A DNA stretch of 64,000 nucleotides from Tausonia pullulans. Its lineage: Eukaryota; Basidiomycota; Tremellomycetes; Cystofilobasidiales; Mrakiaceae. The position numbers were made by a program, and so were the translations under genes. Shown one piece after another: positions 43,784-59,774 of this stretch. The stretch covers positions 124,001-188,000 of the forward strand of contig OX637637.1 of NCBI GenBank assembly GCA_951802195.1. Direction: 5' to 3'. Within the stretch, counting starts at the first letter, position 1. Each line of letters opens with the position of its first letter. Below the pieces are notes generated by a model that was not told where the DNA came from, did no database searches, and worked only from the letters and a program-made list of their open reading frames with translations.

Positions 43784-43785
43784 TT

Positions 43786-43887
43786 CCGAGCAACCTCGGT
43801 TCGAGTCCGGGCACTGCCTGTCTGCCTGTACGATCATGTACAAGGCACGGCGGTGTAGTATAGATGGTTAGTACACTCGGTTCTGAA
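43786..43887 (+). tRNA. permuted tRNA-Gln(CUG), copy 1
   Basis: Complete cloverleaf with its halves in swapped order. The 3' half comes first: anticodon-stem strand CCGAG (43786-43790), variable CAAC, T arm CTCGG-TTCGAGT-CCGGG (43795-43811), acceptor strand CACTGCC (43812-43818), discriminator T. A 29-nt linker (43820-43848) with its own hairpin follows. Then the 5' half: acceptor GGCGGTG (43849-43855), TA, D arm GTAT-AGATGGTTA-GTAC, A, anticodon strand CTCGG (43876-43880) and loop TTCTGAA. All stems pair: acceptor 7/7 (one G-T), D 4/4, anticodon 5/5, T 5/5. Anticodon CTG, U73 and the arm sequences match eukaryotic tRNA-Gln. B box and A box are intact but in reversed order. T5 at 43895-43899 is a Pol III terminator. 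No normal-order copy lies nearby. Confidence 0.8.
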
Positions 43888-44205
43888 GACAATCTTTTTG
43901 CCACCACTGTCGAGACGGTGGAGGAAGAGAAGACTACGGAAACACGGCGTGCTCACACCCGCTGGTAGTCGTGGCGGCAATCCATCCCATCACGCACGCG
44001 TGGCGGTGCAGGATCTCCTGCTGGTCAGGATCTCATAGGATTCTCTCGCCCGCCAGCACCTCATTCCTCGTGAAATGAAGCGTATAAAGCAGATCATACT
44101 AACTGAGGGTGGCGGAGGCGGCGGCGAAAGGTGACCAATCAACCTGCCTGATTTTCAATCGGCGTGCTCGCCCACCTCCTCGAATACACGGCAAAAGGGA
44201 TTGTC

Positions 44206-44307
44206 TTCAGAACCGAGTGTACTAACCATCTATACTACACCGCCGTGCCTTGTACATGATCGTACAGGCAGACAGGCAGTGCCCGGACTCGAACCGAGGT
44301 TGCTCGG
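44206..44307 (-). tRNA. permuted tRNA-Gln(CUG), copy 2
   Basis: Identical to copy 1 over all tRNA positions and the linker, on the opposite strand: 3' half at 44274-44307, linker, 5' half at 44206-44244 (reading downward). Immediate upstream bases are AAGATCTT instead of ATATTTT, yet the four bases next to the anticodon stem (TCTT here, TTTT in copy 1) can both pair with the AAGA that spans the end of the 5' half. This would form a short helix beyond the anticodon stem, as needed by tRNA splicing endonuclease. A TTTT terminator lies 3' (44193-44196 on the plus strand as AAAA). Confidence 0.8.
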
Positions 44308-44576
44308 AAGATCTTCGCTCATTGCAGGAAGCGGACAGAACACGGCGTCCCGTGGACACCTGGTTGTTGCGTCTTCTGCCGTGTTGACCCTAATTCAGCT
44401 AGCTAAACAGGTGGCACTGCCCGTTTTCCTCTGCGGGAAAGAGTTGTAGGCGAAGAGAGACGGCAAAAAGACACCACCGGCGTAGAAGCAACAATAGGGT
44501 AGGCAGTGGTCAAGCCGCCCTCGACTCGATCCTAGCGGGGTCACCCACCTCGTGGTCGCATGAGGGAAAAAGAAGT

Positions 44577-44660
44577 TGATCGATCAGGGACTCGAACCCC
44601 GGTATCTGGCGTTCTGAATGAACCACAAGCCAACGCCCTAACCACCTAGACTAATCGATC
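44577..44660 (-). tRNA. tRNA-His(GUG) with 11-nt intron
   Basis: Normal-order gene. Acceptor GATCGAT pairs with ATCGATC, D arm GTCT-AGGTGGTTA-GGGC, anticodon stem TTGGC with GCCAG, loop TTGTGG then an 11-nt intron and C38, variable ATAC, T arm CGGGG-TTCGAGT-CCCTG, A73. Mature length 73 nt. No encoded CCA, as in eukaryotes. T5 terminator just downstream (AAAAA at 44567-44571 on the plus strand). Confidence 0.92.
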
Positions 44661-45388: not shown

Positions 45389-45473
45389 CACCGCTTAGCT
45401 CATCTGGTAGAGCGTGAGACTGTAACGATTGAAAGACCTCTCAAGGTGTGCGGTTCGAGTCCGCAAGCGGTGA
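45389..45473 (+). tRNA. tRNA-Tyr(GUA) with 12-nt intron
   Basis: Acceptor CACCGCT pairs with AGCGGTG (C1-G72, the eukaryotic Tyr identity pair), D arm GCTC-ATCTGGTA-GAGC, anticodon stem TGAGA with TCTCA, loop CTGTAA, intron CGATTGAAAGAC, C38, variable AGGTG, T arm TGCGG-TTCGAGT-CCGCA, A73. Mature length 73 nt. TTTT terminator at 45478-45481. Confidence 0.95.
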
Positions 45474-45650: not shown

Positions 45651-46365
45651 ATGTCCAGCCCAAAGTCAACAAATCCTTCCCCTTCACCCCTTCAAACTCG
45701 TCTCCTCACCCGGTTCCCCGCCCTCCACCGACTGCACCTTCTCCATCCGTCCTTGCCGATCCCTTCCCTCGTGGCCTCCTTCGTCGTCCTCCACGAACTC
45801 ACCGCCGTCGTCCCAGCAGGCGCCATTTTCCTCGCGCTCCGACAGTCAGGCTCGGGCGAGCGCGTCGTTGGCGGATTGGCGAGCCTCGAGAGACGCGTTC
45901 GCGGGGGGGTCGATGAACACGGCGAGGGCTGGGTCGAGGGGTGGCTAAAGGAGGGCGAGGTCATGGCAGAGAAGATTGGGAGGAGGTATGGAGTGCTTGG
46001 ATTTGAGAAGAAGGGGTCCAAGGCGAAAGAGCAGGATATGGAGGGCACGCCGCTCTCCTCAACCCCCGTCGATCCAGCCGTCGTCCTCGACCCAGCGGCA
46101 GTCCGTCTGCAGGGTGTACGAGGCCAGCAGCTCGCTGGAGATGTGGCAAACGCCGTGGGAGCGTACGTGATAGTCAAGGCGAGTCGTTCCTCGCACGCCA
46201 CCATCGCTGCGTCCCTGACACCCCGACTCATCGCAGGCACTCCTCCCGCTCCGCATCGCCGGCAGTCTATGGCTCAGTCCCCCATTTGCCAAGGCATTTG
46301 TCGTCCCAATTGGACGGCTCTGGTCGCGGGCGACGGGTGGACTGAGGCGACGCCCGTATTTATGA
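45651..46365 (+). CDS. probable mitochondrial membrane protein of a fungal family
   Basis: Two exons, 45651-46178 and 46237-46365, give 218 residues. N-terminus MSSPKSTNPSPSPLQTRLLTRF is basic and Ser-rich as in a mitochondrial presequence. A hydrophobic segment with SLVASFVVLHELTAVVPAGA is followed by a charged middle part and a second amphipathic stretch, KALLPLRIAGSLWLSPPFAK, ending GLRRRPYL. The HELTA and LLPLRI signatures recall small fungal mitochondrial proteins such as Mrx11, but I am not certain. The intron has a GC donor (AAG/GCGAGT) and a TCGCAG acceptor; splicing there joins VIVK to ALLPLRI in frame. Stop in the first exon frame would otherwise follow after a non-conserved tail. 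Confidence 0.7.
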
Positions 46366-46871
46366 GATATCGAGGAGGTGAACGGAGGACACGCGCGCGC
46401 CCAAGCTCTCGCGATGAAAGGGTCGACCTGAGCCTACGCGTGAAAGGGAAACAGAGAAAATATCCCGACATGAGTAGATGCGAATGAAGCGTTGTTGGTG
46501 CTTCTCGCTGTAACCTGGCTGAGATGACGGTGAGCCCCGTTGAGCCGCCATGCAAGTCATGAAAAGGACGGGTTGACGGATGGCGGCGGCTGATTCGGAG
46601 ACCGACCGAATGAACTATGAGAGCCTCGGCTTTGTGCGCTCATAGCTTGTGCCCCGCTCCGGGCAGTGACAGAGCGGATCAAACATGAGGGAGCGCAGAC
46701 GTCATCCATGACGCGCGTGGGAGAGCAGACGCGAAACCACGGACGGGTCAGCCGCCCCAGAAAACGACATCACGTCTTTCTTGCGTCAAACAGCCATCTC
46801 CCATCCACTAAACAATCAACACAACACACCTTCTCTTCCATCCATCCTCTCCCATTCCCTAACTTCTCCTC
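46366..46871. other. intergenic, no gene seen
   Basis: 3' flank of the preceding gene and promoter of the next. Nothing else recognised. Confidence 0.4.
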
Positions 46872-59683: not shown

Positions 59684-59774
59684 TAATGGTGCCGGGAATT
59701 GAACCCGGGCCTAGTGCATGCTGCAGATGTTCTGTCGTGGCAAGCACCAATGATAGCCACTTCACCACACCATT
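59684..59774 (-). tRNA. tRNA-Gly(GCC) with 19-nt intron
   Basis: Acceptor AATGGTG pairs with CACCATT, D arm GTGA-AGTGGCTA-TCAT, anticodon stem GGTGC with GCACT (one G-T), loop TTGCCA, a 19-nt intron, T38, variable AGGC, T arm CCGGG-TTCAATT-CCCGG, A73. Mature length 72 nt. B box GGTTCAATTCC is intact. A T5 run lies about 33 bases downstream. Confidence 0.9.

Follow-up and report, generated by a model that had tools for sequence, protein, structure and literature searches.

Can a tRNA gene whose halves stand in swapped order be a working gene in a fungus? The question is raised by a locus in the window (the whole 64,000-nt stretch of DNA analysed here), where the 3′ half of a tRNA-Gln(CUG), TCCGAG...CTGCCT, is read upstream of its 5′ half, GGCGGTG...TTCTGA (Table 1). 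When the two halves are joined in the usual order they form a cloverleaf with seven acceptor, four D, five anticodon and five T pairs, all 21 of which are present. The swapped order proposed in the initial annotation is borne out by this result, and the U73 discriminator, the 29-nt linker between the acceptor ends, the position of the B box before the A box and the T5 run that ends the unit were likewise read correctly. The interval given there, 43786–43887, was right in the order of the halves but lay one base off at both ends, with T38 belonging to the 3′ half. The names A box and B box were assigned by the established consensus.

A second copy lies close by on the opposite strand, and the linker is 29 nt in both window copies. 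We placed the split at 37/38 because T38 is constant (T in 21 of 21 copies of the family described below) and stands before CCGAG, so that it was assigned to the 3′ half, and because the base 3′ of A37 varies among the copies (a, g or t) and therefore lies outside the tRNA. This junction in the anticodon loop coincides with the canonical site of tRNA introns, and introns occur there in both neighbouring ordinary tRNA genes, which were read by hand.

Table 1. Features of the permuted tRNA-Gln(CUG) copies and of the ordinary comparator genes in the window
Feature	Position	Strand	Basis
Permuted tRNA-Gln(CUG) gene, whole	43785..43886	+	read from sequence
3′ half of tRNA-Gln(CUG), positions 38–73, U73 discriminator	43785..43819	+	sequence, covariance model
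B box GGTTCGAGTCC, upstream of A box	43798..43808	+	read from sequence
Linker, 29 nt, position 73 to position 1, without T4 run	43820..43848	+	read from sequence
5′ half of tRNA-Gln(CUG), positions 1–37, anticodon CTG	43849..43886	+	read from sequence
A box TAGTATAGATGG, downstream of B box	43856..43867	+	read from sequence
T5 run, likely Pol III terminator	43895..43899	+	read from sequence
Second permuted tRNA-Gln(CUG) copy, whole	44207..44308	−	half search and covariance model
Second copy, 3′ half	44274..44308	−	
Second copy, linker	44245..44273	−	
Second copy, 5′ half	44207..44244	−	
T4 run after second permuted copy	44193..44196	−	read from sequence
Ordinary-order tRNA-His(GTG), short intron at 37/38	44577..44660	−	read by hand; comparator
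Ordinary-order tRNA-Tyr(GTA), 12-nt intron	45389..45473	+	intron site read by hand; comparator

The permuted gene belongs to a genome-wide family

The window is part of an assembly of 23.86 Mb in 21 contigs. A genome search with the ordinary-order tRNA as query returned 42 pieces that resolve into 21 loci; the 3′ half comes first in all of them, and they are spread over seven contigs: C18 (9), C11 (3), C12 (3), C16 (2), C17 (2), C1 (1) and C14 (1). With one mismatch allowed, a D-arm pattern matched 51 places in the genome against 6 for the reversed control; these comprise the Gln D arm at the same 21 loci, another D arm at 13 places and, at the remaining 17, a His-type D arm, that of the tRNA read by hand as His.

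There are 14 distinct sequences among the 21 loci, and a 31-nt core of the 5′ half is identical in all of them. The linkers measure 4, 5, 7, 8, 11, 23, 24, 29 or 46 nt and are mostly unrelated between contig groups, except that the linker of C17_580 resembles those on C18 and that the C14 and C11 linkers are one base apart; several C18 copies sit in shared blocks and have identical linkers. The copies are thus not all independent, because nine of the 21 are on C18 and some of them share blocks, and the identity of the halves could partly reflect gene conversion. A run of four or more T follows the 5′ half within 25 nt at every locus, compared with 3.9% of window positions, and no T4 occurs inside the permuted gene, linker included, at any of the 21.

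An ordinary gene elsewhere could in principle supply the mature tRNA, as the initial annotation had pointed out. Among the matches listed in genome searches by three routes (whole-tRNA query, D-arm pattern and anticodon-arm pattern), no ordinary-order tRNA-Gln(CUG) gene was found, although a distant one could escape such searches. The uninterrupted CTG anticodon-arm pattern gave three two-mismatch matches, as did its reversed control, and we rejected all three: ARAGORN and Rfam report no tRNA at any of these sites, the match on C11 (L122) retains a CTCTGAT loop but has no T arm after it, and at L123 there is only an unrelated tRNA ∼100 nt away. Ordinary-order genes were seen at the loci examined for Ala, Arg, Asn, Glu, His, Leu, Lys, Ser, Trp, Tyr, Val and others, names that are ARAGORN labels and in several cases unreliable, apart from His, which was read by hand. 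Many of these genes carry 37/38 introns.

We also looked in the genome for tRNA-Gln(UUG). An anticodon-arm pattern gave 24 matches against 17 for its control, none of them tRNA-like, and two Gln(UUG) sequences used as queries returned nothing; CTTTTGANTC matched 147 times (control, 88) and a D-arm pattern 13 times (control, 22). That no tRNA-Gln(UUG) gene was found in either order, and with it no decoder for CAA, is taken as a limit of these searches.

The two halves are conserved and change together

All seven acceptor, five T, five anticodon and four D pairs are kept at 21 of 21 loci, and the cloverleaf retains U8, G18G19, U33 and the TTC loop. We looked for helix decay and found no broken pair at any of the 21 loci; changes occur on both sides instead. 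Three acceptor stems are found, GGCGGTG/CACTGCC (15 loci), GGTTGCA/TGCGACC (5) and GGTGGCA/TGCTACC (1), and four of the seven acceptor pairs (3–70, 4–69, 6–67 and 7–66) differ on both sides. The halves before and after the linker have thus evidently co-evolved, and they are intact throughout while linkers and flanks diverge.

The strength of this pattern was measured on an alignment of 15 of the 21 loci that covers all 14 distinct sequences. Pairing is present in 100% of 294 cells, compared with 95.5% in shuffles (0/500 as high), and falls to 27–43% of cells when the partner is slid by 1–3 columns. Both partners are altered in 15 cells, where shuffles average 4.2 (none of 500 reaches 15), and a covariation score of 0.160 compares with 0.070 in shuffles (0/500); related sequences may exceed shuffles of this kind even in the absence of structure, as the tool itself cautions, but the slid control retains that relatedness. 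Two further measures do not rise above the shuffles because only three acceptor types exist: the number of pairs changed on both sides (4 versus 3.0; 136/500 as high) and the number of further pair types (4 versus a mean of 6.0; 499/500 as high).

Standard tRNA searches do not report the permuted copies

Neither ARAGORN nor Rfam at its gathering cut-offs detects either permuted copy in the window, where both see only the other tRNAs, and at ten more loci the Rfam tRNA model likewise misses the permuted genes. A permutation-aware covariance search, a check that had been suggested for this locus, behaves very differently. We built two permuted models, of which the one that includes Gln rows (R1) is biased because of them; for the model without them (R2), made for the chance estimate, seven ordinary tRNAs from this genome were permuted in silico (Trp, Asn, two Ala, Arg, Tyr and His). 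In a scan of the window, R2 matches the two copies at 44.3 bits and E 6.2e-13 each, the E-values of such permuted models being rough according to the tool and the bit scores unaffected. The four other window matches up to E 10 reach at most 24.9 bits and all overlap the two ordinary tRNA genes. Given the window and 19 loci (23 rows, some loci overlapping), R2 detects every one of the 21 loci in the genome at E ≤6.2e-13. When up to three mismatches are allowed, the window contains the 31-nt core of the 5′ half twice, and none of 100 shuffles contains it.

In a scan of 57 of 96 genomic loci, model R1 scores 65–78 bits for the Gln copies only. Its next scores in the same set, 39.6 and 36.2 bits, are forced fits to ordinary tRNAs and were rejected as permuted genes of other isotypes. 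A search of viral contigs gave 0 matches.

Predicted transcription and processing of the permuted genes

If the permuted genes are active, they must be transcribed with their internal promoter elements in the swapped order. We found no common TATA position among the 21 leaders. Nor do the leaders appear to supply a substitute A box, since 18% of the 17 distinct leaders reach 7/8 matches, compared with 31% of random window stretches. A downstream B box, an arrangement known from yeast U6, was not found in the 138–400 nt that follow the permuted genes. The genome does contain a match to PF04182 (B-block TFIIIC) at 28.7 bits.

The genome also encodes the parts of a tRNA splicing machinery. Two PF01974 loci are present, one of them identified by sequence as Sen34 (PDB Sen34 chains, E 2.4e-15) and the other as Sen2 (E 6e-7); the Pfam domain is matched in both, with the Sen34 exon slightly under the cut-off (25.9 versus 27 bits). 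A PF09511 RNA ligase domain, which we take to belong to a Trl1-type enzyme, is encoded as well (best piece, 92 bits). Together with the ordinary genes that have 37/38 introns, these sequences suggest that 37/38 splicing operates in this fungus.

The flanks of the junction were examined for an intron-like motif. Among 18 distinct cases, pairing of leader and trailer beside the junction (BHB motif) is no better than in shuffles (z −2.2 to +0.8); C14_35 and C17_217 form a leader/trailer helix with a 3-nt bulge, similar to a relaxed BHB. A purine three bases before the 3′ site is expected to pair with U32, and such a purine at the intron-like position −3 is found at 9 of 21 loci, being absent from nine C18 copies, two C16 copies and C17_580. 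We also folded the linear transcript with RNAfold; its minimum-energy structure is not the cloverleaf, and its stability is unexceptional (z −1.39, 18/200 shuffles as good).

Taken as a whole, these observations indicate that the loci are very probably working circularly permuted tRNA-Gln(CUG) genes of type II (37/38); our searches turned up tRNA-Gln(CUG) genes in no other form. Weighing against this reading are the leader/trailer pairing at shuffle level, the purine at just 9 of 21 loci, the lack of a conserved TATA position, substitute A box or downstream B box, the fold of the linear transcript, the partial dependence among copies and the two covariation measures that do not exceed shuffles. 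Function, which the initial annotation had also proposed, is argued for by the sequence comparison, because the halves co-evolve and are conserved. We further consider it likely that all tRNA-Gln(CUG) of this fungus comes from the 21-member family by way of circular precursors, transcribed by Pol III despite the B-before-A order, with a TFIIIC B-block protein present. Maturation would then probably be carried out by the splicing machinery and pass through a circle, as in Cyanidioschyzon.

We modelled the maturation scheme on the algal cases described in the portions of a 2014 review drawn on here (PMC3978253). Pol III would produce one RNA consisting of leader, 3′ half, linker, 5′ half and U tail, which would fold into the tRNA body with the linker joining the acceptor ends and the anticodon loop open at 37/38. 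The Sen endonuclease would cut off leader and trailer in the manner of an intron, and a Trl1-type ligase would close the RNA into a circle by joining positions 37 and 38. In the last steps RNase P and RNase Z would excise the linker before CCA is added, and ligation might precede or follow the opening of the linker.

Relation to known permuted tRNA genes

The 2014 review, in the portions drawn on here, lists 34 permuted tRNA genes from algae and Thermofilum pendens and none from a fungus (PMC3978253). Our search of open-access literature, made by title or by the start of the abstract, likewise yielded no published fungal case, in keeping with the lack of a fungal precedent noted when the locus was first annotated; among the matches listed, the basidiomycete literature on permuted and tRNA genes consists by title entirely of mitochondrial genomes. 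We therefore regard the fungal genes as type II permuted tRNA genes, a kind already described, in a lineage for which we found no report of them.

The closest counterpart is the permuted tRNA-Gln(CTG) of the red alga Cyanidioschyzon merolae, which in Table 1 of the review is a type II 37/38 gene with a 31-bp intervening sequence (PMC3978253). The isoacceptor and the junction are the same, the linker is of similar length to the 29 nt of the window copies, and in both systems a T stretch follows the 5′ half and no terminator lies within the linker. The differences concern copy number and promoter: the table has one Gln(CTG) gene for the alga whereas the fungus has 21, and according to the same portions of the review most permuted genes of C. 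merolae have a TATA-like element within 50 bp upstream and the alga lacks TFC1/TFC3 homologs (PMC3978253), while the fungus has no conserved TATA position and does have the PF04182 match.

Other type II permuted tRNAs are listed there for Ostreococcus, Micromonas and the Bigelowiella nucleomorph (PMC3978253), and permuted tRNAs also occur in Auxenochlorella according to the part of a further paper drawn on here (PMC12636532). The listed genes of the first three share with the fungal ones the 37/38 junction, with linkers of 5–64 bp and mostly no intron, but they differ in isoacceptor (Ser, Leu, Cys, iMet, Arg and Asn) and come from green-algal lineages and the nucleomorph of a chlorarachniophyte. 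Thermofilum pendens resembles the fungus in the circular permutation itself, and there the anticodon has no gene other than the permuted one; its genes differ, as far as those portions of the review describe them, in being type IV (59/60) with a T-loop junction, archaeal promoters, single copies and an intron in each (PMC3978253). The linkers of 4–46 nt found here compare with intervening sequences of 1–74 bp in known permuted tRNA genes. Ordinary intron-bearing fungal tRNAs, such as the neighbouring His and Tyr genes, share the 37/38 cleavage site, and presumably the Sen endonuclease that acts there, but have their halves in the usual order and the A box before the B box.

If this reading is true, it would be the first such case in fungi and would imply that permutation either originated or persisted beyond the algae and archaea, with the isoacceptor and junction seen in Cyanidioschyzon. 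The family would apparently be the sole source of tRNA-Gln(CUG) in a basidiomycete whose tRNA genes are otherwise, as far as seen, in ordinary order. It would make three matters testable in fungi: the use of swapped-order internal promoters by Pol III and TFIIIC, whether the Sen endonuclease needs the tRNA body alone or an intron-like motif, and the origin and spread of a permutation, given that relative ages can be assigned to its copies. A further lesson is that a whole isoacceptor can escape annotation, since ARAGORN and Rfam are silent at the two window copies.

Alternative explanations

The alternative that departs least from working permuted genes accepts their function and dispenses with the circle: RNase P and RNase Z would cut the linker first, and the endonuclease and ligase would then join the paired halves. 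All required cuts fall at the same places, nothing in this fungus fixes their order, and the linkers range from 4 to 46 nt, all of which such a route would accommodate; against it stand parsimony and the precedent of C. merolae, where permuted tRNAs mature through circular RNA in the account drawn on here (PMC3978253). We regard it as unlikely. A more radical possibility is that the loci are non-functional relics, in which a tandem pair of tRNA-Gln genes was stripped of its outer halves, the remaining piece was spread by segmental duplication, and CAG decoding falls to a different tRNA, such as tRNA-Gln(UUG) by wobble. The C18 copies that lie within shared blocks with identical linkers fit such a history, and neither a tRNA-Gln(UUG) nor an ordinary CUG gene was located by which the alternatives could be judged. 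Relics would nevertheless be expected to decay, yet the halves are intact at 21 of 21 loci though linkers and flanks diverge, the three acceptor versions stay paired through changes on both sides, the T runs are retained, and no remnant of an outer 3′ half (GTCCGGG) is found downstream in the 400 nt examined at 15 loci and the 138–144 nt examined at six. A relic origin is in our judgement very improbable.

That the loci yield a tRNA-half or circular regulatory RNA in place of a decoding tRNA would agree with the weak junction motif but leaves unexplained the full conserved cloverleaf, from U8, G18G19 and U33 to the TTC loop, and the co-evolving acceptor stem; as no other source of tRNA-Gln(CUG) was found by the three search routes, we give this very little credence. 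Least credible is an assembly artefact, which the initial annotation had also considered, or contamination by algal contigs. The listing of permuted tRNAs so far from algae and archaea, in the portions of the review drawn on here (PMC3978253), is what speaks for a foreign origin. An error would, on the other hand, have had to produce the same order at 21 loci on seven contigs with 14 distinct sequences and differing linkers and flanks, and the window contig itself has basidiomycete-like neighbours and intron-bearing ordinary tRNAs.

Neighbouring genes and other tRNA loci

The fungal identity of the host is supported by these neighbours. The protein encoded at 45651–46484 carries the FLILHELTA family (PF10306), and the 16 of its 37 relatives that are named, for example from Termitomyces, Boletus and Mycena, are all basidiomycetes by what we take to be their class placement. 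For a second neighbouring protein the named relatives among the best 120 of 5235 matches are Mycena species, and for a third the named relative is Mrakia frigida, with one weak match.

A dispersed block, CTCCCAYTGAC...CTCGATGG, is more or less complete at L009, L011, L013, L017, L019, L023 and L002 and lies in reverse orientation ∼190–910 bp upstream of several permuted genes. We rejected it as an element specific to permuted genes, since it also occurs beside an ordinary tRNA-Trp; it is perhaps a remnant of a tRNA-seeking repeat.

Several ordinary tRNA loci were noted in passing. tRNA-His(GTG) is also present at L015, L017 and L072, with introns of ∼11 to ∼70 nt, and is labelled Thr, SeC or Tyr by ARAGORN. 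L015 (280–428) and L017 (271–419) each contain a gene that ARAGORN calls Ala(CGC), with a 77-nt intron, and that, read by hand, is maybe a tRNA-Pro(CGG) with a long intron. In the window, ARAGORN proposes an ordinary tRNA-Gly(GCC) with a 19-nt intron at 59684–59774 (−), a candidate under the Rfam gathering score, and at L123 a tRNA at 1292–1405 (−) scores 52.5 bits, over that threshold, and is labelled Ile(TAT) with a 42-nt intron by ARAGORN. Dense tRNA clusters in repeated blocks, labelled by ARAGORN as Val, Lys, Ala, Ser, Leu and others, occupy ∼674–1374 kb of contig C6 (L070–L093).
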